Positions 121-53,962 of a stretch of DNA of 53,962 nt are shown piece after piece. Position 1 is the first letter of the stretch. The number at the start of each line of letters is the position of its first letter. Below the pieces are notes generated by a model, which worked only from the letters and a program-made list of their open reading frames with translations, was not told where the DNA came from and did not search any database. Origin of the DNA: Apophysomyces variabilis (lineage: Eukaryota > Mucoromycota > Mucoromycetes > Mucorales > Mucoraceae); contig MZZL01000010.1 in assembly GCA_002749535.1 (NCBI GenBank), positions 1-53,962 on the forward strand, given 5' to 3'. The position numbers and the translations under genes were made by a program.

Positions 121-3100
121 CTAGCCTTTCTCCACTCGCTTCGCTCGTTCCGTTGCAGCCGCACGCGGCTGGAAGGTGAACTTGGTTGTTTCTAGCAGTT
201 CCTTTTCTGGGAATATTAAATAATGGCATATATTTATAATAGAAAAAGATTTTAAGATTGCTATGAATCATATTGATGAGAGAGACGTATACATGAACCG
301 GTTGTAAGTTGAGATATGTCAGAGATAATAAAACATAACAAAAAATCTGCATCAAACGGATCAAGAAGGATGTAGGATATATAGAACATATAGAGAAACA
401 GATAAGGATAAAACTATAAAGACTGTAAAGAATAAAAGGCATAAGAAGGTATTTGCAACATAATCATACTAATGTTAAGATGCATGCGATAGTAGTAATT
501 CTGGGTATACAACGTTTTTGGTTATACGTCGAGAACCTTCTGGTAATAACACTGTGAGCCCTGAACTGCTGGTAACTCTGGACATTGCGACATAAAGCTG
601 GCCATGAGTAAATACTGGTTCACGAAGATCAATACCGACGCTGGACAATGATTGGCCCTGGGACTTGTTAACTGTCATGGCGAAAGAAAGCCTTACTGGA
701 AATTGGCGCCTTTTGAGCATGAACGGCAGCTCATCATTGCTAGAAAGAACTATTTTGGGAATAGAAACCACTTTTCCATGGTGCTGATGTCCTATGATGG
801 ACGCTGTCAAAAGGTTTTGTGAAACCCTTCGGACAATCATACGGGTTCCATTACAGAGGCCATCCCGCGGATAAAGATTGCGCAATAAGATGATAGGTGC
901 GCCAACCTTCAAGTTGAGCTGAGCAGGAGGAAGCCCCGGAGTGTTGAAGCTTCGAAGAGACTCTTGGGCGATCTCATCAATACTCTCTTCCTCGTTGACA
1001 TCGCAAGAGTCCGAGGACAAAATTGAAATCTGCTGACCATCAATTCTGGACAACATTATTTCATTTAAAGCATCAACCTTTTCATTGGTTGAGGCCAGAA
1101 TAGCCCTTCCCTTGAAAAATTCCAAAGGATCGGCATTTATGAGCTCATCCGCCGGATATATGCTTTGAATCAGTTCCTGCTCAGATTCAGTACAACGGAT
1201 GTATGACGGAAGAAGAAGGTTGCCATATAAAGATGGGTCGTATGGCAACGTCCCAACCCATTTTGCAAATTGCTTGTCAGTATCTGAAGCTGAACAAATG
1301 CGCATATTGATGCGAAGGTTGAGTTTCTGCAGTTGAGGCCAAATATACGAACTGGTCAATGATGCTTCAACTGTTTGAGATCTATTGCCACGGACGACAG
1401 GAGATATCTGGGCAAAGTCTCCTCCGAGAATCACTGCCTTACCGCCAAATAGCTTATTGCGTTGGCAGATGTCTCGCATAGTTTTGTCAAAGGCCTCAAA
1501 GCAAAAGCGATGCTGCATAGGAACCTCATCCCATATAATTAGAACTGCATGACGAATCAAGTCAGCCAGCTGGGAGTTAGCTTTGATTCCAGTTATCGAG
1601 CTTTCTTCGACATTCAGTGAGATCTTAAAACGGGAGTGAGATGTCCTTCCACCAGGAAGTAGAAGGGCCGCAATACCAGATGACGCTACGCAGATTACTA
1701 TCTGATTGTTTCGCCGGAAGTAGCTGCACAACGTCTTGTATAGAAAGGTCTTTCCTGTGCCTGCTGGGCCTTGCAGAAAAAACTGTGCAGATTCAGACGA
1801 TGACTGTATCTGTGACACGACTGTTCCAAAGGCAACTTCTTGATCTAAATTCAGTTTGTTATACATGCTTTCAAAAGCACTGGCTTCCTGGCGGGTATCA
1901 TACTGTTGCTGTTCGTTGTCTATCATCTGGTTGCCTGAAGACTGAAATGTCCAGTTATAGCAAGGGGATGGGAGTCCATACTGCTTTACATCATAACCCA
2001 TATCTTCGAGTTCTCTTTGGATCAGATAAAGTCCATAATCGCTTGCAGGATTCTCGAGTTCTTCAAAGAATGGAGCGCCTGAATCGTTCTGATTGGATCT
2101 CTCATACTCCCTGTGTAGGGATTCTTCCCGAAGATCATCACAAATTTGACATTTGAATCTCTCCCACATATTTGCAGGATCTGTCATGTCTCCATGAATT
2201 AGTGCTAAAATGAAGAGCTGTCTCAAGCTGTTTCCCGAGCAGACATGGATAGCTTCATTAAAGCAGAGGATCCAATTTTGATCATTCTGTAGAAGACCTC
2301 GAGCAACACATGCCTGCTTAAAGGTAGGGTGTACTATACGTCTACCTTGGCCGTCTGTCGTAGTGCGCAGATCTTCAAAAGAAGAAGGACCAGGTACAAC
2401 TGTCAACAGCATCCGTAGGTAGTACCTTTCGCCAGCAAAAGGGCTGCAATGGTACATTCTGCCAATCTGATACCCTTGTTTTCGCTGAAGCCAAACTCGT
2501 CTGCGGTGATCCCAGCGAAAATGAGCAGGAAAATCATGGTAAAGGTACTTGATCGCATCAGGGTTTTGTCGATAATAGTCAAAGTAGCTCATAAGCGTTG
2601 TGCGACTATTCTCCATCCTTTGTGCAATCTCTTCTCGGTTGCCATCTTGGTCAAAATATACGGGCTGTTCTCCAGGAAGATGTACGCTAAGATGAAGCAC
2701 AGGTGGAAACTCTTCATGGAAAGGGAATTCGAAAAGATTCCATGCTGCTTCTGTCGGACCAATGTACCTACCACTCAGGTACCGCTGGATCTCGTCATGT
2801 TCATTCCTGATTTCCAAGCTAGTGCGGTCAGGTCCCTTATAAACGTACTTGTTAACGTATTTGATACTCTTAATTGTTGCACAGACTTCCACATTAATGT
2901 GTGCCTTGTACTTCTTGAGCAAATAAGCATTGTATGGTACGACCCACGTATTGTCGATGTAGAACGTTTCTCCTGAATGAGACGGATGGCGAACAGCATG
3001 TCTCACTCCATTATCACGTCGACGATACAGTGGATAGCCATCTGTCCCTAACCGCGTCTCAGATTGGAAAGGTTTAGGATACTTCTTAGAACAAATAAGT

Positions 3101-5377
3101 CCTCCCGGCCTCGCAGCATTTTCTTTCATACATGGAGATTTTGGGTTCACAGTTGACCCACATGGTCCATGGATCATGCAGGATGTTACTATTTCATACA
3201 GCTCACGGTCCTCATCTGCATCAGGAAGCTCGGCACTGATGATCTCATCAATATCATCGATATCGTTGAATTTGTTGTCGACAAAAAGTAGAATATGCAC
3301 GTGCGGAAGACCTCGTTTCTGAAACTCAATGGTCCGCACTATGCCTTTGAATTTTCCGAAAACGTTCTTTGTCTTCAGATCATGTAGTAATTCATGCAGC
3401 TTTAAGTTGAAAACTCTGGCAATTAGATCGGGCCTGTCAGCAGCAGACTGGCCAGGAAACAATTCTGCAGTGATTTCACTCCACCTTGGATTTGCTGTGA
3501 AAGTGATAAACAGGGATGGCTTGCCTAAATGGCGCACGATTGCCATGGAATTCTGAAACAGCTGTGCCATGAACCTCGGGCCACCATGATAACTGCTGGG
3601 TAACACAAACCGTCGGCCAACAGCAGAAACATCTACGTCGTCCTGCACCAGTACATCAGCCAAGCCATTGTAAAGATCGACTCGAATCCTGTTTTGATTT
3701 TTGCGAAACCACTCAAGTTTTGTCTGGTCGCATATAGCCCATGCATCTACCAGAAATTGCTGGAACAGCCGTCGAGCATAAAATATTGTCGAGAACTCTC
3801 CGCTCCGCAAGTGTAGACGAAAACGGTAATATGCTCGCTGCCCTAGCCGCATACGCTGACGCTGAGTACCATCAGCGGTTTCAATCGCATTAAGTGTAAG
3901 TCCCCATGTCCAACCAAACTCCCCATGGGGGAAAAGCAGCACGTAGTGCAATGGCATGTATGCACCGTGAGTCTGATTTATCCGAGTCAAACTTGGTTGG
4001 CCATCAGTGCTTCGATATCTGACAATGATGTCTCTATAAGATCCGGTGCTCTGAGATCCCGCTTCGAAATTTGCAACTTGTTCAGGCACTATCGCAGCAA
4101 CTTCATCAGCCGTAGGTAGGTTTTCCGTGCGTTGATCTGAACCTTGGATAAGCCGCATCCTCATTGAAGGGCTGATGGTAACATGAGCACTCTCCCCTCT
4201 TTCAAACCTATGATGATGCTCCTGTAAAACTTCGAACGCTGTCTTATAAACGCGAATAAAAGGGTTATTGATCTCATGAAGCATCTCAGTCAAACGTCGA
4301 ATGATTTGACTATCAAGCTCGGCGTATTGTGCAGAGCGAGCAATGCTGGCATATGAAGGGTCATATATGTAAAATTGAGTAAAGGAAGGAGGTGAGCCTT
4401 CCTCAGGAAGAAGCTGTCCTTGGAGATGATATACTTCTCCGTGAACCTGGAAAACTGTAGGACCGCGCCCATCGTTCAATGAAGTTTCAATTTGACATCC
4501 AAGAGATGTAAACGCAAAGGCTGCATTGAACCTTCGTATGTTTTTCAGAAAATGAGAAGAAAGAGGGTGTGTCCCATCATACAGACTTTTAAGGTAGTCT
4601 GGAGGGTCCTGCAGTAAATGTAGGCTCACAGCATTTCTCTTGCAGCAGCTTTCAAATCTCGGGTCCCCGTCCGAAGAACGGGAATCATGCTCAGCAAGCC
4701 AATGCAATGCTTGACAGTCAGGACATTCTACAGTCATTCGACCAAGATCTAACGGCATGAAGTTTGCTAGTCGAGATCGGAATGCCAGGGGAAGTCGACG
4801 TCGTCGTGTTTCACTGTTCACGTATTGTTCAACTTCTCTAAGATCATTGTCAGGCGTCAGATGACCATCAGCGATCAAATGATCAGCATCAGCATTGCCG
4901 ACGTCATTAGTGGGGACATGGGAATCTTCAGGGCCAGGACGACGACGCTGAGTAACAGGGCCTGAGGAATCTGATTGTGCTTCATCTGATTTTCTTTGAC
5001 GTTTACGATAATGCCAAGCACGGCTGCGCAACCTGCATGGATAGCATGTTTTTCTACTGTCATCTGATGGTCGTAACTGTTAGCGTTCGGTTTGCTAGGT
5101 GTTGTTCCTGGTTGTTGTTCAGAGTAGAGCTATGCCACGTTACCTCGGTCTGGTATCAAAAGTTGTTTACATTTAGAACATTTATTGTTATTATTAGTAT
5201 TTGCCATTGTTCAATTCTGTATCTACAATGTGAAAAGCAGAAGAACGATCGAAAAATGGAAAAGAGTAGAGGAGTAGAAACAATCATAAAAGAATCTGCC
5301 TTTTTTCGAAAATAGAAATCGGCAAAATGTTTTTGCGCGCAAAAATTTATCGAAAATACAGTATACTAATAGAGTGA
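121..5377 (-). mobile_element. Autonomous Helitron transposon
   Basis: The element runs on the minus strand. Its 5' end reads TCACTCTATTAGTATACTG, the TC start typical of Helitrons, preceded by A. Its 3' end is CTAG (121-124) followed by T. A short palindrome (AGCCGC / GCGGCT, 157-170) lies about 33 bp inside the 3' end, as expected for the Helitron terminal hairpin. There are no terminal inverted repeats and no target-site duplication; insertion is between A and T. It encloses one long intact Rep/helicase frame. The same two terminal sequences recur in the neighbouring element at 5381-6356, which supports the boundaries. The exact 5' base is uncertain by a few nucleotides. Confidence 0.88.
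475..5031 (-). CDS. Helitron Rep/helicase (RepHel) protein, 1518 aa
   Basis: Rolling-circle transposition protein. The N-terminal third carries the Helitron-like domain. The HUH Rep motif is visible as GLPHVHILLF near residue 574, and the catalytic tyrosine region as KYVNKYVYKG near 727. The C-terminal part is a PIF1-type superfamily 1 helicase: Walker A GPAGTGKT near 1090, Walker B IIWDE near 1165, GGDFAQISPV after it, and NKSQGQS plus YVAMSRV near the end. The frame is uninterrupted with no introns, so the protein could be functional. It fills most of the 121-5377 element. I see no extra RPA, OTU or endonuclease domain. The N-terminus is basic (SRAWHYRKRQRK), plausibly nuclear. Unlike the host genes it is intronless, consistent with a mobile origin. 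Confidence 0.95.
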   Translation of the reverse strand: MRSRAWHYRKRQRKSDEAQSDSSGPVTQRRRPGPEDSHVPTNDVGNADADHLIADGHLTPDNDLREVEQYVNSETRRRRLPLAFRSRLANFMPLDLGRMTVECPDCQALHWLAEHDSRSSDGDPRFESCCKRNAVSLHLLQDPPDYLKSLYDGTHPLSSHFLKNIRRFNAAFAFTSLGCQIETSLNDGRGPTVFQVHGEVYHLQGQLLPEEGSPPSFTQFYIYDPSYASIARSAQYAELDSQIIRRLTEMLHEINNPFIRVYKTAFEVLQEHHHRFERGESAHVTISPSMRMRLIQGSDQRTENLPTADEVAAIVPEQVANFEAGSQSTGSYRDIIVRYRSTDGQPSLTRINQTHGAYMPLHYVLLFPHGEFGWTWGLTLNAIETADGTQRQRMRLGQRAYYRFRLHLRSGEFSTIFYARRLFQQFLVDAWAICDQTKLEWFRKNQNRIRVDLYNGLADVLVQDDVDVSAVGRRFVLPSSYHGGPRFMAQLFQNSMAIVRHLGKPSLFITFTANPRWSEITAELFPGQSAADRPDLIARVFNLKLHELLHDLKTKNVFGKFKGIVRTIEFQKRGLPHVHILLFVDNKFNDIDDIDEIISAELPDADEDRELYEIVTSCMIHGPCGSTVNPKSPCMKENAARPGGLICSKKYPKPFQSETRLGTDGYPLYRRRDNGVRHAVRHPSHSGETFYIDNTWVVPYNAYLLKKYKAHINVEVCATIKSIKYVNKYVYKGPDRTSLEIRNEHDEIQRYLSGRYIGPTEAAWNLFEFPFHEEFPPVLHLSVHLPGEQPVYFDQDGNREEIAQRMENSRTTLMSYFDYYRQNPDAIKYLYHDFPAHFRWDHRRRVWLQRKQGYQIGRMYHCSPFAGERYYLRMLLTVVPGPSSFEDLRTTTDGQGRRIVHPTFKQACVARGLLQNDQNWILCFNEAIHVCSGNSLRQLFILALIHGDMTDPANMWERFKCQICDDLREESLHREYERSNQNDSGAPFFEELENPASDYGLYLIQRELEDMGYDVKQYGLPSPCYNWTFQSSGNQMIDNEQQQYDTRQEASAFESMYNKLNLDQEVAFGTVVSQIQSSSESAQFFLQGPAGTGKTFLYKTLCSYFRRNNQIVICVASSGIAALLLPGGRTSHSRFKISLNVEESSITGIKANSQLADLIRHAVLIIWDEVPMQHRFCFEAFDKTMRDICQRNKLFGGKAVILGGDFAQISPVVRGNRSQTVEASLTSSYIWPQLQKLNLRINMRICSASDTDKQFAKWVGTLPYDPSLYGNLLLPSYIRCTESEQELIQSIYPADELINADPLEFFKGRAILASTNEKVDALNEIMLSRIDGQQISILSSDSCDVNEEESIDEIAQESLRSFNTPGLPPAQLNLKVGAPIILLRNLYPRDGLCNGTRMIVRRVSQNLLTASIIGHQHHGKVVSIPKIVLSSNDELPFMLKRRQFPVRLSFAMTVNKSQGQSLSSVGIDLREPVFTHGQLYVAMSRVTSSSGLTVLLPEGSRRITKNVVYPELLLSHAS

Positions 5378-44426: not shown

Positions 44427-44584
44427 ATGAGAGAAGAAAAGGTAAGATGACTACGAAAATCAATAGCATACGAAAGAAATATATTCAAAGCACATGATGA
44501 TTTTATGTCACTTGAGCATCGCGCCGGTCATTCAATTCCAGATCAACGCACCTTTCTTCCGTTTGTCTTCTACCTCACACAGCC
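44427..44584. promoter_or_regulatory. 158-bp bidirectional promoter
   Basis: Only 158 bp separate the start codons of two divergent genes (zinc-knuckle on minus, Tag1-like on plus). The interval must hold both leaders and core promoters. I see no clear TATA box in it. Confidence 0.55.
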
Positions 44585-47471
44585 ATGCAAGAGGCAAGCG
44601 ATTCCAAAGGGGAGTCATCGTCTTCCAACCCTCTTCATATCCATGCCAAGCCCGAGAACTCTGAGACAGCGCCTCTTCTCATATCGGAAGATGGTAGTTC
44701 TAACCCAAGGCTTAAGCGGAAAGACAAATTCCCAGCTTGGCGAGGTGTCACCAGTTCGGCATATGGAACAACTCCTCCGCCAGAAGGAAGACACCGATCA
44801 GATCCGCATGTTCCACTCTGGTCAGAGCATAGCAGGCTACGAATATGCCTTGCATTTGTTCTTCTGATTGCTTTTTCACTTATCATGACCGTCGTGCTAA
44901 TACTCATGGCGCCCGGCTTTGCGCAGCGATCATTAGAAGATGGTGTCAACTTTGAATTCCTAGAGACATCTATACTTAACGTTTCCAGCCAAGACGGAAA
45001 CAAGAGTGTCATTACCATGCATGTCGTTGGCAATATTATCCTACAAGATATCACCTATAGTCTCAGCCAGAAGGCTTCATGGCTATTTGGCCGTATCAGC
45101 ATGCAAAGCACAGACTTGCAAGTATTTTATTCTCCAGCATTAGAGATATTCCAGCCGCAATTATCACGACGTGCCATGGGCACAATCTCATTGCCAGTTC
45201 TCTCGCTGCAGCAAGATAGCAACATTAGCAAATTTGACTTTGTTACACAGTTCGTCATTGAAGCAGAGGACGTCTTGATTGATTTTTGTAAAGATGCTGT
45301 TGCCTTGAAAACGGTCAGTTGGCAGATAGCAGGGGAAGTTACACTACAAATAGGATGGCTCCCTGTCCAAGGACATCTACAACTGAACAAGGCTGTCGAT
45401 TTGGAAGGTAAACTACGTTTCTAAATATTTGCAAATCCAATGTTACACTCATGGATGCCACAGAATACTGACTGGTAGCCTTTAGGTATGGATGGGTTAC
45501 AATATACGGAAATGCAATCCATCGCTTTTCCTGGAGCTCATGTGCTAGGAGGCATAGCACTTCGCGGAATCGTGGGAATCTATAACCCTTCAAGCACTCT
45601 CAGCTTCAATCTTGGCGACGTTGATTTCGGAATATATCTGCCCATGCAAGAAGGTGCCCAGAAGGATGTAATAATTGCAGTCGTCCGAGCAAACGATGTC
45701 AAACTTCTTGGTAAACAAATGAACAAGTTTACCATAACCGGACGCTCCATTCCATTGGACGATAATGATGTTAACGGAAAATTACTGATGGAACAATTCT
45801 TGTCCTCATACCTGCATGGCAATATTTCCACCGTTCTTGTGCGAGGAAGCGCTTTTGGACCAGATGAGCGTAACAATAGTGACAACGCGTTTTCCTCAAC
45901 ACCAATATGGTTGCGGAAAGCACTCCAATCAGTCACATTGAGTGTTCCCTTTCCTGGAACAACACAAACAGACCTTATCCGCTCGCTTGAACTTTCGAAC
46001 ATCAAAATCGATTTTAGCCAACAAGGTGACGCGCTAATATCTAGTGATATTGACGCATGGTTTAGAAAACCGGACGAGATGCAGTTTTCCATGAATGTGA
46101 CAGAGATCAGTCCCATTGTCTATCTATATCTTGAATCCGATTCGAAAAGACCATTTGGTCGTGTTTACCCTGATGGCCCGTGCAAAGCATATACTTTCGA
46201 AGACGATGATGGTCTGCCCAAGGGGACTGCCAGGATCAAGTCACGACTTAACAAGGCACCATTTTCCGTATTGGACGAGGATGATTTTCAAAAGTTTATA
46301 TTTGCAGTATTCAACAAACAGCATAGCAAGGTGTTTATACAAGGTTCTGCTGATGCCAAAGTAGATAGTGCGTTTGGACTTCTAATGGTGCGAGGTCTGA
46401 ACTTCAAGGGCGAAATTGAGACCCAAGGTACTTGAGAGAACGAATACAGGGCCCATAAGAAAATATTACATAGCGGATCCAGTGTTGTTTCGATTAAATG
46501 GGGCCTATGAATCGTTTAAATTTTTTGCATATATTCCGTTGTATCAATTAACAAACCTTCTTATGAAAAGGTATGAAGGGTATGAAAGATCCTCCGCCAA
46601 AGGTGACTTCAATGTCGATTGTCAAAGGATATCCCAACGCTATCGAAGCTGTTTCCACCATTGTGATAAAGAATCCTTCAGATATTGATGTGAACCTCGG
46701 GCCAATCAATCTGACGCTCATATATCAACGTCAGAATATAGGCATGGTCAACATCCAAGAATTGCTGTTAAATCCCCGTGCTGCCAATGAGATGACAGCG
46801 ACTGTTTGGCTACATCGTTCTGGGAAAGCACAGTCTGACCAGCAGAGCATGGTAGACTTTGTGGGAAAGTATATCTCAGGTAAGAAACGTTAAATATTTT
46901 CCGCGACTGACTCTGATACGCAGGTGGAAACGACATGAAGCTAACAATATCTGGAAATCATTCACATGCCACCCCGTCGAAATTACTGCAACCTCTCGTT
47001 AGGAATTTTGAATTTATTGTCCGTCCGCCACCGTTTATTGCGGAACCACTATTGAAAGACATGCAAATCAACGTTCTCTCCTCTACAGCTGTATTATGGC
47101 TTCGTAACCCTTTTCCGGATATCTTAATGCAGATAGTGCAGCTGAACGCCTCTGCTACGTACGAGTCTCAAGAAATCGGCACTAGCTATGCTAATTTCAC
47201 CGACAAAGCCGAAGGATGGAAAGGCTCGCTCGTGCTACCTCCACTGTTCTGCGGTAGTGACTCCACCAATTGTACTGGAACGGTGGTTGAATCACCGAAA
47301 CTACCAGTCATGACCAAGAAACTTGGTTTTGAGGCGATTAGAAAAGCTTTAGGTGGATCAATTGAAGTAGCGGTCAGCAGTACCGTCACCGTCATGGTGG
47401 ATAATTTTGTTTTGGAGAATCTGGTCTATCAGCGCGATAATCTCACAGCCAAAGTCAGGAAGGGATTTTGA
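44585..47471 (+). CDS. TAG1: Tag1-like vacuolar membrane protein (DUF3712), 873 aa
   Basis: Type II, single-pass membrane protein resembling yeast Tag1 (YLR173W), a vacuolar protein implicated in ending starvation-induced autophagy. Exons are 44585-45407, 45486-46427, 46571-46879 and 46924-47471, giving 874 codons. A cytosolic, Ser/Pro-rich N-terminus holds an ETAPLL acidic dileucine, a typical vacuolar sorting signal. The membrane anchor is at residues about 88-112 (LAFVLLIAFSLIMTVVLILM). A long luminal beta-rich region follows, with repeated NPS/NP motifs and several N-glycosylation sequons (NVS, NIS, NVT, NCT, NLT), as in the LEA-like repeats of this family. FTITGRSIPLDDNDV and PPPFIAEPLLKDMQINVLSS are recognisable family-type stretches. 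It converges on the Fanzor locus. Confidence 0.82.
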
Positions 47472-48025
47472 AACAGTTACTGCTGTATCAAGTGCAGCTT
47501 AGTGGTACTTAGTGCATGCGAAGATAGGCAGCTGCGCGATACATCAGAATTAAGTAGTTTCAAAGCCTTCTATTGCTTCTACATGGTTGACTATGGTGCA
47601 GGATATGGTCCATCTTAAAAGCAAAATAAATCGATTTATTGCGCATCTTGAATATTTGATCTTCCAACTTTTATGCATTTCAACAGACATAGCCCATAGA
47701 ATAGTAGATAATATTTTATTATCGGCAAATATCCTAACTTTTGTTCAATAAATGAACAGGTTCTTTAGCTCATATTTTCCTTTTTTTTATCCTTGAGTCG
47801 GCAGCTTTATCAGTGGTTAACCGAATTGATTATCACCCTACACTTAAGTCTCTATAAACAAGCAGCTTACAATCCATTACGATTACTCTGCATCTCCGTT
47901 GGTTATGAAGAAACCATCGATAATCCTGAATCTCTTGTAACTCTTTTTCACTGTTATTTTTACTGTAAGAGTATAACAAATTCCTATAATAGGCATTGTT
48001 GTGAGTCACACAATAAGACTGGATT
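47472..48025. other. Intergenic between TAG1 and the Fanzor locus
   Basis: AT-rich, no gene seen. It contains the word CTCTGCATCTCCGTT (near 47887), which recurs near 53526 on the far side of the Fanzor gene. Confidence 0.4.
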
Positions 48026-48222
48026 AAAAAAAAAGAAACCTGTTATATGTCCGTCATAGCGACGGATGCCGGCCTTCGCATCCTGTTTATAAAATAAGCA
48101 AATTACTTGTGCAGATAACTAACAGTAACACCTACCAATATGGTGGCTTTCTGAAGACGACTGTACGCACCTATAGTAAAGATATATTAGCTGTTAAAGC
48201 TGCCACACTTTAAATATGTCGG
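48026..48222 (-). ncRNA. Candidate Fanzor guide RNA (fRNA/omega RNA) region
   Basis: Directly 3' of the Fanzor stop codon, on the same strand, the sequence holds a cluster of stems. CCACCATATTGGTAGG forms a small hairpin. GGATGC-gaaggccg-GCATCC is a 6-bp stem. CCGTC-gctat-GACGG is a 5-bp stem sharing two bases with it. About 17 nt later comes a run of nine T (48034-48026 on the minus strand), which looks like a pol III terminator or a poly(T) boundary. In TnpB and Fanzor loci the guide scaffold typically lies at or just past the 3' end of the nuclease gene, so the position fits. The guide portion and exact ends cannot be read. Confidence 0.4.
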
Positions 48223-51200
48223 TTACCTTTGAACGGTGGTATCGGCAATATTGGATATTCCAGCGTCAAAATGGCTGGGATCAAATGGTGGCAACGTTAT
48301 CCTCTCTGCAGAAAAAAGGTTGCTGATCGCCGCTAGTCCGATGGCCACGGCGGCTTGAACGTCGCGATTTTGAGTCGTACGCCCTGCTTTAAAAGTAACA
48401 CACTTCGAGTTGACGCAGCGCGAGCTTCCATTCATAGTACGCCATTTAATTTCCTTGTAACGACGCCCTTTTGGGTGAATTATCTTCTGAAAACAGAATA
48501 CGCATGTTTGCGAGCTACGATGCTCATCTGTCATTGCCACTGGGGTGTACCTACGGTGTCTCGCCCGTAACCATTTGCCTTCACGCTTAGGATGGCCTTT
48601 CAATCTGGACCCAACACACGTCCCTTGGGTGCCAATCGCCATAACTGGTATTACCCTCCTTCCGCTATCATGTGGCCCCGCTTCCATCGCGATCTTTCTT
48701 CTCTCGTTTGCAGCCACTCTATCGTATATTCTCTCCTTGTAGAGATCTTGTATCACCTTTTCTTTGTGCCACCTGTTTGAATGGTAAAAATCCCTGAGCG
48801 TCTTTCTACAGCTCCGACCAATCTATAAATGTGTATGTTATCGATAGTTGTCCAAAAAAGACTAACGATTACCTTTTGACAACGAATAATATCTTGGACT
48901 GACATAGCTTTCTCCATCGAGGCTTCTTTCAATTGCTCTTCGGCTGCAAGAACCTCTGTATTCGACTGTGGCAATTATCACATAAGCACAACATATTTTA
49001 GTTGGCTTATTTACCTTCTTTCGTCGCTCCCGTTTCTTGCGGAATGTCCTTGCAAGTGTTGTTTCATCGAGCAATTTTGCCGTGATACGTATCGGCTTTG
49101 GTAGCTGGAGCATGTCAGTAGGAGAGACATCGATATCATCATCGTGATCATTGACGTTATTGACACCCAGCATCGAATATCGATTGTAAAGCTGTAAATG
49201 GAAATCTGCTCTTTGTCTCGTAATAGGCACTGTAGTCAACAGCACTTGCAAACCGTAATCAGTGCCACTGAACGTTAGTATATTGTTCTGATCTTCTAAA
49301 AGTGGCCCAAGATCTAATCGGCCTACGCCGTCTTCACAGCCGGGGCATCTCCCACTTTGGGGTCTGCACAGGCTATCCTCCTCCTCCTCCTCCTCCTCCT
49401 CGTCGTCGTCGTCGTTATCGTCGTTGTGCTTGTCCTTCTTTTTCTCCTTTTCTTTTTTGTATTTGGTATCTTCTTCATCACCATCTGCTTCCTCCATTTT
49501 CTCGTCTTCTTCTTCTTTGCTTTTTCTCTCTTTTCTGCCAGCAGGACTTTTACCTTTTTTCTTTTGATGCGCTTTCACCAACTGTACGATTCTGTATATT
49601 AATATACGCTTTTATGTTGATGCAAGTTTGTATTCAACGTTACCTGTTCCAACTTGTACTTCTTCCGTCTTGCATTTGCTAACCGATCGTGTACTTGATT
49701 CAAAGCCATTTGTTGGTTTGACCAGTTCAATTTTGCAGCTTTTAAAGCTTCATAGCTCAGTTTCTGCTGTTGATATGCTGCTTCCTTTTCAGTAACGTTT
49801 TCATGTTTGTCTGCCTTTCTTTTGTCCCTTATGCGCTTTTGACAAATAGCTTGATTTTCCTGATAGCTAGAGCGCAAACCTGCAACTAACTTCGTGGCTT
49901 CTTTCACAAGCTTGGTGTGTTGACATTTCAACGTTTCAAGAGTTTTTACATCCTTCTTTGTATCATCGAGAGTCTTTGCTAACTCAGGCGTGCTTTGTTG
50001 TTCGATGCTCGGCTCTTGGACGTAGGGTTCCTTTTTCCTATAATACTTCTTTCGTCTCGCCTCGTACCGTGATTCTATGGGTCTTCTTTGTTCACAAACG
50101 TTACCATCAATAATTGCTGTTTTCTGCGGAGTTACTGTGATGCGCCAGCGTGGTACCAACCCGCGCTCCTTGCATGTTTTTTCAATAGCCTCTACGTTGA
50201 AAAACGATCCAATCACTGTTCGCTTTTCTGCTATTGCTTCGTCTCTGTTTGTGAACACTGAGCCATCTGCCTTGTAAATATCAAGCTGGGCATAGCTTGA
50301 CCCAAACATTTCATACATGGCTACTGCATCTAGTGGTAGTGCGTGAACAGAAGCAGGGCTGATTGTGGGACATATCGAAGCAGTGAACTCTTGATATCCA
50401 ATCGAACAGAGCAAAGCGTTCGCCAATACTACGAAATTGAGACGCAGCGGTATACAAGGAGCAATTTGTCCCCTAATGACGTACGGCCTTAATGCGTTTG
50501 CGATATTCACCACGGTATCGATTTCTTGAGGAGAAAATGCATCGTCCGCATGAGAGGTAGCTAGCACATCTTCCACTGTTACATGGCCGCTGATCTTATC
50601 TGACTGTAGGAGGGCTTTGGTAATAGCTTGCAGGATACCGAGCTTTCGCCTGCTTGGCTCACTTGTCTCCTCCTTCTCCTCCTCCTCCAGTTCTTCTTCT
50701 ATTTGTTCGAACACACCGATGTGTGTTTCACCGAGGGATATCAAAATCTTCGCTTGCTGCTCCTATTTTGCCACGTAAGCATATATCCTAATCAATAATG
50801 AAGTTTACCTCTTCTTTTGTAACCGACGCTCGGTTGTTCATTTGCTCTACTTTTATTGATTTTGGGTTGGACCTGGACTCCGATCGCGCCAGCAATTGAT
50901 TTTCGAGCCGTTCGATCGCCTCAGCACACGTCGCCGCACGCGTGGCTAGCCTTACCAAGATATCATCTTCTTCTTCCTGCTCGATCTGCTTCTTCAAGTT
51001 TCGCAATTGCTTTTTCTCGTTTTTTAATTTCCTTTTGATAGCTTTTTTCCGATATTGGTACTTGATCACTTGTTGCTGCTCGATTTCTTTTTCTCTTGCT
51101 AGTTTTGCCTTCTCTCTGATTTCTCGTACTTTTTCTTCACGCCTTGGTGCAAGATTAACACGGAGTAGAACACGCAATAAGTGATTCATGCTTCTGTTGT

Positions 51201-52290
51201 AAAGAGATCCTGCCCACATATTCTTTAAATTCGTCGAAAATTGCTTCATGTAAAAATGCGACGTCCTGCAAAGACCATCGGGAATTACAGGCTGATTGTC
51301 AAGAGTTTGATCATGGAACTGCATCCATAAGTAGTGTTTTTCTTTGCTCACGTTTCCTTTTGTGCCAAAATATAACCCGTGCAGAAATTGGATATGGTTC
51401 TCATTGAACATGGAAAGTAGATCGTTGTTTCGCCTGCCTGGCATCTCGTCAAGAAACTGCGAAAGATTATCTGGCATTGGGGCTACAGGTACAAAATAGT
51501 CATCTACCAGCATACTTTCGTCACGTAATTTTTCTTTGGGTACAACTGTACGGATATCGAAGCCAGTTGATGTTTGGTCCAATTCAGCTTTCACTGAACC
51601 TGATGCTGGGTCTAGAGACAAGGAAACTGACACGTATTTCAACATGGTAGCACGTACAACAGTTGCCAAGTCGGACACATAATCCGTCATTTGCACGGAC
51701 GTCGACTCTACCGTGTGCATAAAAATCCTTTTCAGATTTTCGTCAAGATCCGGCCGCAGTACGGATTTCAAAGGAACTGTACATGTCCTGAAAAGGTTAT
51801 CCGAGTCTTCATCTTTCTTTTTGGGTCTGTTCTGCTTTCCTTCAGCTTTGACCACAGCCAAGACATCATCGAAGTTATCGACCGCGCATTGTCTCCAAAA
51901 TTCGCCTGTTTTATGGGACGACGAGAGTCTAGAACGTATCTGTTTCTCTATTGTCCCTTTAGGGACGCCCGCTTTTTTGTCTGCTTCCTCAAAACTTCCT
52001 CGAGGGATTCTGTCTGCTTTTTCAAGAGCTTGTCGCAAACGATCCATCCTTTTTTCTTGAGCCTTCAGTCTCTTTTCTTTTGTTTTGGCAGACTGTTTTC
52101 CTTTCTTTGTTTTTCTAGAATTTTTTGTCTCATTTTTCCACAGTTCGTTTGCTATAGTACTCTTCAACTTCTGTAAAAGTACTCCAAGCAAGGTATTTTT
52201 GGCTTGATCGTAGGATATCTGAGGCTCTGTTTGCCTTTTCCTTTTTCTTCTGGCGCTACCGCGTGGTGTAGGTAATTGTATTTCGTTCAT
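48223..52290 (-). CDS. Fanzor RNA-guided nuclease (eukaryotic TnpB homologue), 1286 aa
   Basis: Five exons, 50809-52290, 49644-50762, 49015-49581, 48873-48965 and 48223-48822, each a whole number of codons. Predicted OMEGA-type, RNA-guided RuvC nuclease. RuvC-I is LTFSGTDYGLQVLLTTVP, with Asp near residue 973. RITAKLLDETTLARTFRKKR is the bridging helix typical of fungal Fanzors. VIPVMAIGTQGTCVGSRLKG corresponds to the RuvC-II strand, where the usual Glu is absent. MTDEHRSSQTCVFC supplies the alternative Glu (near 1187) known for Fanzors, followed by the zinc ribbon CxxC...CxxxxC. RTTQNRDVQAAVAIG carries the RuvC-III Asp (near 1241). The N-terminus (SARRKRKRQ) looks like a nuclear signal. The approximately 960-residue region before RuvC-I, with coiled coils and an Asp/Glu run, is very long. 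No transposase gene is adjacent. Confidence 0.88.
49377..49415 (-). repeat. CTC/GTC trinucleotide repeat inside the Fanzor gene
   Basis: On the plus strand a run of CTC units passes into CGT units. On the coding strand it encodes consecutive Asp then Glu residues, within exon 3 just before RuvC-I. The run is likely length-variable between strains; it shifts no frame because its unit is three bases. Confidence 0.85.
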
Positions 52291-53962
52291 AAAAAATACA
52301 AGAAATGTTGGATCTAGTTCTCAAAAGTAGAACGGAAAGGTGATATGCGAATTGTTCTCTGAACTGTTGTCCAATTTTCACTTGACAGATTGGACTGCGA
52401 ACTTTTCTGATAAAAAAAAAACTGAAACTTTATCACTTTATTTATCGTGGCTAGCTCTCATGTAGTTGAAAAGGAGAAAGAAGATAACGAGAAAAATTCG
52501 ATTCGGACAACAGAGAAAAAATGGACAAGTCTTTATAACGGTTGGCAAAGAAGGGAAAGACCAAGGATACAAAGTATAAAGAACCTAGGTTATAGTGATT
52601 GCTATTGAGAAAGAAGCGGCAATACGAATAAAGAAAATCACAGGGAAGCAAGGGATAAAGGTTAAGCTGACTTGAATATTCATGATCGCACTCCCACTTT
52701 TATTCCTTACCTTTTACTACCTTTATATCCAACCAATCTTGGTTCATGGAAAAAGATGGAAAAGGTTCGCTTGCAACGTATCAGCGAAAGAAGAAAACAA
52801 AGTACGAGAGCAGAAAAGGCACACAAGTAAATGTCTTTGTGTCGGATACAGGCCGCATAATTGCTCCAGTTGGTTGGGTTGATTTAGCCTTGCATCAAAA
52901 GATCGATAAAAGCCGGGCACTTGCTGTACCCTTCCATCTCAAAATCAAAGACCTGCATGCTCCAGAAATCGCGTGGCCTCTGTTCGCAGTAACATCGTAC
53001 ATTGCAACAGAAATCTCATACAGTTGCGTAAACGCGCCTCCGTGTTTACATAAAGGTAATACATGGACAAATTGAGCGGTACTTCACATGTATAATCTTT
53101 TTGGATTGCCCCCATCAACGGTCGATGTAATTGTATTTTTTCTCATAGACTTGTGGGTGATATTTACTCTGCTGCCACATCTTCAAGTCTTTCCCATAAG
53201 AATGCCGATGTGAGTGTAATCTCAACGCTGTTTGAGTAAAGGAAAGACGGCAATCAACTTTTACGTACGAATCTCCCGTAAAATGTCCAAATTGCTAAGG
53301 TGTACCGTCGTTTTCTTTGGGATATCCTTGTATGGAAACCACTTCTTCAAGACTAAGTTTTGCCTCGATTACGATGTGACCATCTGCATACTGCTGATCG
53401 CTACGAGAGACCTACGGAAAATTCAGCGAGAAAATGCGTCCTACGGTTTAAATAAAGAATGAAATAGTAAGCACGTTATCATGAATTGCTTTCTGTTTCG
53501 ATTTATATTGCGCTTTTGTGTTAGAGCTCTGCATCTCCGTTTTCAAACTCAATGCATGCACCACAACTTCATGGTCCCGCATACAGTTTTGAATCGACTC
53601 CTATAATGCAGGCTCAATAGCATCAGCACTACTGCTTGCAACCGTTAGAGGGATATCTTCCTGCTGTTAGACTGTGGTACATGCTTCGGAAGCACTGCTG
53701 TTGAACGATAATATTTGGAACGTTCGATGTAGTGCTTCACTAGCCTTTTAGATATCTAGTTATCAAAAACTTTTAAGGAAAAAGGAAAGGAAAAGAAGTA
53801 CATTTACAATCTTTATATAAAGAACAGCCACTTTGGGGAAAACGTACCCGGTTCTTTGATATATCCCCGCCATTGCTACACTGTCTTATCTAAGTCAATA
53901 AAAACTTAACTTTAACTAGGAGATTTTCTCCAAGTTCAAAGAACCAAATACGGCCAGCTTCC
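52291..53962. other. 1.7 kb upstream of the Fanzor, no confident gene
   Basis: It holds the Fanzor promoter (minus strand) and one plus-strand frame at 52746-53075, listed separately. A short A9 run lies at about 52413-52421. The second copy of CTCTGCATCTCCGTT lies near 53526. No terminal inverted repeat matching the other side of the Fanzor was found. Confidence 0.4.
52746..53075 (+). CDS. Hypothetical protein, 109 codons, possibly one exon of a gene
   Basis: Unrecognised. It starts MEKDGKGSLATYQRKKKTKY and continues with GRIIAPVGWVDLALHQKIDK and PEIAWPLFAVTSYIATEI. The amino-acid use looks protein-like, with a basic start and hydrophobic middle, but there is no known motif. No convincing downstream exon was found; a second frame at 53232-53462 is not obviously linked. 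It could be a small gene, a fragment of a mobile element, or chance. Confidence 0.25.
   Translation: MEKDGKGSLATYQRKKKTKYESRKGTQVNVFVSDTGRIIAPVGWVDLALHQKIDKSRALAVPFHLKIKDLHAPEIAWPLFAVTSYIATEISYSCVNAPPCLHKGNTWTN

Follow-up and report, generated by a model that had tools for sequence, protein, structure and literature searches.

A divergent, oversized Fanzor-like gene in a multicopy element, with a predicted target-adjacent motif and guide segment

Gene and repeated element at the locus

The stretch of DNA analysed here, called the window below, is the whole of contig C1 (MZZL01000010.1, 53,962 bp) in the 38.7-Mb, 126-contig genome assembly of Apophysomyces variabilis. On its minus strand (52290-48223) lies a gene whose product resembles Fanzors, the RNA-guided nucleases of eukaryotes that are relatives of TnpB and Cas12. 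The gene forms part of a repeated element of about 6.61 kb, and its product is probably a Fanzor-type enzyme that cuts DNA under RNA guidance.

The gene splices to an open frame of 1,286 codons plus a stop (coding sequence 3,861 nt), with four introns that are all GT-AG (Table 1). This predicted five-exon structure was picked from 60 combinations of splice sites by reading frame and by the appearance of donors and acceptors. Several of the 60 combinations are also open, at 1,277-1,291 codons (for example, with other intron 1 acceptors or with another intron 2 site pair), which leaves some uncertainty over a few residues where introns 1 and 2 are spliced out; the catalytic motifs are untouched. 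The alignment to protein P0008 of Mucor fragilis runs uninterrupted across the exon 3/4/5 junctions. In the other 11 copies of the element that are gap-free across the gene, all four introns are GT-AG, and in 10 of these the aligned introns have equal lengths. The original prediction, made from the window alone, had placed the gene at 48223..52290 as five in-frame exons with canonical splice sites and no sign of decay. The coordinates, the open frame and the GT-AG introns were confirmed under the splice model chosen, and the absence of decay is true of the window copy; the element's 5' end is cut off by the end of the contig.

Table 1. Positions of the gene, its catalytic residues and the element features in the window
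Feature	Position	Strand	Basis
Repeated element, part within window; 3' end at 47970, 5' end about 616 bp past contig end	47970..53962	-	copies and flanks
Exon 1, start codon 52290-52288	50809..52290	-	open frame and splice model
Intron 1, 46 nt, GT-AG; alternative in-frame acceptors possible	50763..50808	-	conserved in copies
Exon 2	49644..50762	-	open frame and splice model
Intron 2, 62 nt, GT-AG; alternative in-frame site pairs possible	49582..49643	-	
Exon 3, acidic low-complexity linker (residues ~871-954) and RuvC-I	49015..49581	-	
Intron 3, 49 nt, GT-AG	48966..49014	-	
Exon 4	48873..48965	-	P0008 alignment continues through exon
Intron 4, 50 nt, GT-AG	48823..48872	-	
Exon 5, RuvC-II strand, relocated Glu, zinc ribbon, RuvC-III, stop codon	48223..48822	-	
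D975, RuvC-I Asp (GTDYG)	49258..49260	-	six-sequence alignment
E1187, relocated RuvC-II Glu, six residues ahead of zinc ribbon	48523..48525	-	aligns with DEY Glu of SpuFz1
Zinc ribbon, C1194, C1197, C1223, C1228	48400..48504	-	six-sequence alignment
D1241, RuvC-III Asp (NRD)	48361..48363	-	aligns with NRD of SpuFz1
Conserved 3' non-coding end, 253 nt, predicted guide-RNA scaffold source	47970..48222	-	conservation; also matched in remote loci
Hairpin TCCGTC-GCTAT-GACGGA	48050..48066	-	38 genome sites
Predicted terminal stem, 5' arm	48035..48048	-	folding of last 101 nt
Predicted terminal stem, 3' arm, finishing at element right end	47971..47984	-	folding
Predicted guide segment, the ~21 nt of right flank next to the element	47949..47969	-	OMEGA/Fanzor layout (PMC10432273); assumed length, as in other Fanzors
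Small divergent open frame inside element, 110 aa from Met	52746..53075	+	open in most copies

Catalytic motif and homology to Fanzors

The RuvC-I motif of the window protein reads G973-T974-D975-Y976-G977. Nearer the C-terminus, T1185-D1186-E1187-H-R-S-S-Q-T-C1194 is followed by C1197, C1223 and C1228 and then by R1240-D1241. The Fanzor/TnpB motif D-X(125-275)-[TS][TS]XX-C4-X(5-50)-RD (PMC3627910) is present in the protein and in 0 of 2,000 shuffles of it. Fanzors have their Glu moved to a position (Ealt) six residues ahead of the zinc ribbon (PMC10711439), and in the window protein six residues separate E1187 from C1194. In an alignment of six sequences, D975, E1187, all four Cys and R1240-D1241 were invariant.

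The link to known Fanzors runs through a cousin in the same genome, L037, which carries the canonical DPG at RuvC-I. L037 matches the C-terminus of the window protein at 36% identity over 113 residues (E 3e-18 as a single comparison, 4e-14 in the whole-genome search), and it matches SpuFz1 (PDB 8gkh) with E 0.0042. Its score against PF07282, the TNB/OrfB zinc ribbon, was 24.7 bits for a cut-off of 26.3, and it was listed above the cut-off together with its neighbours in the genome scan. When a family profile including L037 was compared with the PDB, the top match was SpuFz1 (E 3.1e-4), with E1187 and D1241 aligned to the DEY Glu and the NRD Asp. In the SpuFz1 row these two residues stand 65 residues apart, the same spacing as E541-D606 among the SpuFz1 metal ligands D383, N385, E541 and D606 (PMC10432273). 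By these sequence comparisons, the homology to Fanzors through DPG-bearing L037 is clear.

Database searches for relatives, which scored only about 8,000 candidates sharing the most words, yielded 14 proteins, seven covering the C-terminal region (P0008-P0014) and seven found by N-terminal matches (P0001-P0007). Those with an organism name are all Mucor or Rhizopus proteins (Mucorales according to NCBI); P0012 and P0013 carry none. Apart from one protein called 'Up in starvation', they are labelled hypothetical, uncharacterised or unnamed. P0008 (M. fragilis) and P0010 (M. lusitanicus) are 1,262 and 1,308 aa long. A Pfam scan of the 14 relatives found a TNB match at E up to 1 in P0009 only (10.9 bits). 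Relative P0001 found no Fanzor when searched against the PDB, and an NCBIfam scan of exons 1, 2 and 5, P0009 and P0014 found none either; only L037 reached guided_TnpB, at 15.1 of 100 bits. Weak matches to MmeI_hel in N-terminal or linker parts of 5/14 relatives (best E 2e-4) were set aside as below cut-off; P0001, the only relative for which the cut-off was seen, scores 16.5 of 27 bits. The Pfam matches of exons 2 and 3 to KASH_CCD and BUD22 lay below the cut-off and were likewise put aside.

Copies of the element and selection on the gene

Counting copies had been proposed as a check with the original prediction. The DNA from 47970 to the contig end recurs in 15 long copies at 98-99% identity (the window counted), one copy at 88% and several fragments. 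The copies share a 5' end about 616 bp beyond the window and the 3' end at 47970, and their flanks differ from one to the next, as for a multicopy element with defined ends.

Twelve copies (the window, L018-L027 and L029) are complete, with no N anywhere in the gene. The gene is intact in eight of them, L023 being judged from a single comparison, and broken in L024, L025, L027 and L029. Outside this count are L030, L031, L033 and L034, which contain N runs, the partial L035, the decayed 88% copy L032, and L028, whose acidic linker in exon 3 has a single N and a short duplicated piece, possibly through an assembly fault. Three of the broken copies carry the same 2-bp CT deletion, located in a CTCT run. 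The deletion could reflect the spread of one dead copy, but most other copies are at least as close to L027 as L024 and L025 are, and with the CTCT run this makes recurrent slippage as likely. Between the window copy and L032, the ratio of nonsynonymous to synonymous differences (pN/pS) was 0.36 overall and 0.24 in the core; core values against the 88% copy span 0.21-0.24.

Twelve copies of equal score make up a sister family, in which the last ~200 residues are 59% identical to those of the window protein. Its 3' end is identical over at least 313 bp in 12/12 copies, after which similarity stops, and judged by these sequences the sister family is a very recent burst. Its 12 places lie on C29, C30, C79, C83, C84, C87, C95, C107 and C116. 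For the window element itself, the near-identity of its copies supports recent copying.

The element also holds the small divergent open frame listed in Table 1. Its product is 39-48% identical at the amino-acid level in five remote loci (C116, C77, C66, C6 and C73), some of which have no Fanzor core match listed nearby, and a Pfam scan of it found no domain. Scans of two element proteins turned up no recognisable domain of a recombinase or transposase. A genome search with PF12012 (Crypton) gave no match, but there was no working positive control for it.

Junctions and the 3' end

The element begins with TAGGGTATAACAG and finishes with GGAATTTGTTATACT. Fourteen left junctions read A[T/G]GTACT-NN-TAGGGTATAACAG, position by position A in 13/14, T or G in 14/14, G in 11/14, T in 11/14 and ACT in 14/14. 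The right junctions found by end sequence (n=15) read TTATACT in 14 cases and TTATACC in one, and are variable thereafter; L023 is without the last ~18 bp of the element. NN was equal on both sides in 7/12 two-ended copies (permutation mean 3.4, P 0.0096). A serine recombinase is expected to leave an identical crossover dinucleotide at both ends, and since identity fails in 5/12 copies, such an enzyme is not favoured.

Genome-wide there are 18 exact left ends. Fourteen stand next to a long copy, three within ~125 bp of contig starts and one at C94:282476, which is probably the far end of a copy split by an assembly gap. These account for all 18, so that the search gave no sign of a partner element having this exact left end. 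Right-end matches number 19. Two of them, C75:46528 and C76:187002, match the 15-letter right-end pattern in isolation, and the searches made showed nothing else of the element there.

In SpuFz1, the motif CATA corresponds to a conserved CA before the left repeat together with the TA duplication (PMC10432273, PMC3627910). By analogy, A[T/G]GTACT is predicted to be the target-adjacent motif of the window element, and the right flank is predicted to provide the guide.

Over 191 alignable positions, the 253-nt 3' non-coding end shares 92.7% identity with that of L032, compared with 90.6-92.8% in coding sequence and 82-90% in introns. It contains a hairpin of the form YCYGTC-GCYAT-GACRGR, found at 38 genome sites and at 0 in a reversed-pattern control. 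All 38 hairpins lie at 3' ends of these elements: 30 are within 600 bp downstream of a core-domain match on the same strand, and the other eight are inside DNA matches to such 3' ends. None of the eight canonical Fanzor loci checked has it. The hairpin is kept between the two families, whose predicted terminal stems differ in sequence. Two of its pairs are changed on both sides between the families, but a C-A mismatch occurs at three sites. We predict that this region is the source of the guide-RNA scaffold.

Proposed mechanism and points against it

We consider it probable that the ~6.6-kb element encodes an oversized, divergent RNA-guided nuclease of the Fanzor lineage, predicted to cut element-free sites next to A[T/G]GTACT, with repair copying the element back. 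The 3' non-coding end would be transcribed as the scaffold RNA, and its 3' tail, running into the right flank, would act as the guide. The left-flank A[T/G]GTACT would serve as the target-adjacent motif. As the right end of the element reads TTATACT where ATGTACT would match, a filled site would be spared. The cut would then be repaired from an element-bearing copy, so that the element is kept or spread. The initial insertion at ACTNN would be the work of an enzyme not found here.

Several results weigh against this reading. The first group concerns the protein. DPG occurs at RuvC-I 'near exclusively' in Fanzors (PMC10711439); the window protein has DYG, and DNG stands in 7/7 relatives covering the site. 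A Pfam scan of the full-length protein found no family match, and exon 5 alone reached 13.3 bits against PF07282, under the cut-off of 26.3. When L037 was left out of the family profile, SpuFz1 was still first of 177,635 sequences, with an E of only 0.065. No Fanzor was found among the PDB matches of a 103-residue C-terminal piece in a single-sequence search, nor did A1 and A2, two longer profiles, find one. Comparing profiles with eight canonical Fanzor C-termini from the genome gave a weak result, with a probability of 8.8 and E 0.0038 (one comparison). On the geometry of D975, E1187 and D1241, the AlphaFold models of relative P0009 (14 sequences) and of exon 5 (8 sequences), neither of which is the whole window protein, were of low confidence (mean predicted local distance difference test scores, pLDDT, 42.2 and 44.5). 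Among the seven other intact copies, pN/pS was 0.67, with 1.32 in the N-terminal part and 0.27 in the core, from few and non-independent differences.

The second group concerns the 3' end. Four of the 23 loci matching the sister-family 3' end are without the exact hairpin, and the hairpin's covariation was not above that of shuffles (142/500). When five stretches of the window 3' end were folded, only the last 101 nt stood out (z -2.89, 1/200 as good), the longer stretches giving z -1.11 (131 nt), -1.10 (150 nt) and +1.03 (130 nt). The whole 253-nt 3' untranslated region was not unusually stable (z -0.55). In the sister family, z was -1.96 for the last 85 nt and -1.11 for the last 101 nt.

Size is a further departure. 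The majority of Fanzor1 proteins have 600-700 aa (PMC11423790) and Fanzors reach ~800 aa (PMC10711439), and the window protein, at 1,286 aa, is about twice the usual length. Given DYG or DNG in place of DPG, together with this size, we file the protein under a divergent, oversized Fanzor-related lineage and not as a canonical Fanzor1. The lineage is likely, from its sequences, a divergent and oversized Fanzor branch that goes unrecognised by the standard domain library. The original prediction is amended on the same points. Its Fanzor identification stands in so far as the triad and zinc-ligand residues are all present; its statement that all expected hallmarks occur does not, given DYG, the length and the lack of a Pfam match. 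Of its catalytic residues D973, E1187 and D1241, the last two are right, while residue 973 is Gly and the Asp is D975. It had also inferred an active or recently active copy; recent mobility of the element does not amount to activity of the nuclease.

Alternative explanations

One alternative casts the gene as a passenger. An unlinked enzyme, either a transposase or a tyrosine recombinase, would recognise the ends and move the element, and the nuclease would have no part in its spread or retention. The ACTNN insertion pattern, in which the two ends agree in NN in 7/12 copies, resembles a target duplication or a recombinase crossover. Four of the 12 gap-free genes are broken, three of them by the same CT deletion, for which recurrent slippage is possible. 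Against this, none of the 18 left-end matches revealed a partner element with the same exact left end, and the gene bears the mark of past purifying selection. We hold this explanation to be doubtful, though deserving of serious weight.

The 3' hairpin and terminal stem could also be a binding site for the mobilising enzyme and not a guide-RNA scaffold. The terminal stem is an inverted repeat that has TATAACA in common with the left end, the covariation is not significant, and an Rfam search of the 3' end gave no match. The confinement of all 38 hairpins to element 3' ends, and their retention in two families with different predicted terminal stems, argue for the scaffold, as does their position, which is where Fanzor guide RNAs are encoded (PMC10432273). 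A binding site is thus a minority possibility, albeit a credible one.

We find it unlikely that the protein is a Fanzor descendant that is no longer a nuclease, its changed RuvC-I and its ~870-residue N-terminal part having been reused for DNA or RNA binding, for example in repressing or targeting the element. Such a change of role would fit DYG or DNG in place of DPG, and most of the protein length lies outside the nuclease core. SpuFz1 uses N385, two residues past D383 (PMC10432273), and the window protein has G977 there. The invariance of D975, E1187, D1241 and the four Cys in six sequences speaks for a working nuclease, and so does the low core pN/pS against the 88% copy.

An extension of the nuclease reading that we judge quite improbable is that the protein is a self-sufficient giant Fanzor, whose ~870-residue N-terminal part would supply strand exchange or docking at ACTNN while the RuvC part makes the RNA-guided cut. 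It is suggested by the lack of a recognised transposase domain in the scanned element proteins and of a partner with the same left end; the N-terminal part itself has no Pfam domain above cut-off. If true, a single protein of a eukaryote would combine transposition with RNA-guided retention.

Finally, a chance resemblance, or an unrelated zinc-ribbon protein, would agree with the lack of a Pfam match above cut-off but hardly merits credit beside the absence of the motif from all shuffles and the match to DPG-bearing L037.

Comparison with described systems

SpuFz1, the Fanzor1 of Spizellomyces punctatus (PDB 8gkh; PMC10432273), shares with the window protein the relocated Glu before the zinc ribbon, the C4 ribbon and the NRD of RuvC-III. 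Like the window element it is multicopy, with a motif visible at the left flank too. It differs in having 638 residues, terminal inverted repeats of ~30 nt and a TA target duplication (PMC10432273, PMC3627910), whereas the window protein has 1,286 residues and DYG at RuvC-I, and its element has ACTNN junctions and TATAACA-type ends. PpFz1 of Parasitella parasitica (PMC11423790) is likewise a Fanzor1 enlarged by insertion, but its insertion of ~100 residues lies within RuvC, while the window protein gains several hundred residues N-terminal to RuvC-I.

The element MCi-2 of Mucor circinelloides (PMC3627910) is alike in its ~6-kb 3' part, 99% identical between copies, and in its internal Fanzor gene, and neither element has recognisable terminal repeats. 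MCi-2 has variable 5' regions, ATAATTNNNN(N) duplications and a partial Crypton transposase; the window element, in contrast, has a single 5' end common to its copies and ACTNN junctions, and no transposase was recognised in it. We rejected the idea that it belongs to the published MCi-2 family, given the different duplications (ATAATTNNNN(N) and ACTNN), the different 5' ends and the likely difference in species. The source is likely another species than the MCi-2 host because the C-terminal 208 residues of M. lusitanicus P0010 have a best match of 38% identity in the window genome.

Prokaryotic TnpB (IS200/IS605, IS607) has the D-E-D RuvC and zinc ribbon in common with the window protein, and its D-hydrophobic-G at RuvC-I is like DYG (PMC10711439). 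In TnpB the canonical Glu typically lies ~50 residues upstream of the ribbon, whereas the window protein has the relocated Glu, and its gene has introns. The protein is more than twice the 350-550 aa range searched for TnpB in PMC10711439. No Fanzor of such size is described in the parts of PMC10432273, PMC11423790, PMC10711439 and PMC3627910 covered.

Genome context and implications

Elsewhere on the contig, one 1,534-aa open frame at 478-5079 (minus strand) carries Helitron_like_N (PF14214), PIF1 and Pif1_2B and looks like an intact Helitron. An open frame at 44516-45421 (plus strand) has a DUF3712-like match just below the cut-off (23.3 of 24.1 bits), and another at 46917-47471 (plus strand) ends ~500 bp from the element 3' end. 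The contig ends of C1, C15, C48 and C112 fall inside element copies, so the assembly was probably broken by repeats at these four places.

The core of the window protein has at least 156 exon-level matches in the genome (121/172 candidates scored). PF07282 has at least 73 (150/164 candidates scored), so that these 38.7 Mb are rich in other Fanzor-like genes too. As the window protein has no Pfam-A match above cut-off, surveys of the Pfam type would likely miss its lineage.

The lineage, about twice the usual Fanzor size and without the DPG signature, includes young families (15 long copies in one, 12 copies with identical 3' ends in the other), and the copies thus directly display their left flanks, right ends and 3' scaffolds. 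They give a concrete prediction of motif and guide, and the lineage raises the question of what role its several hundred extra residues may play.

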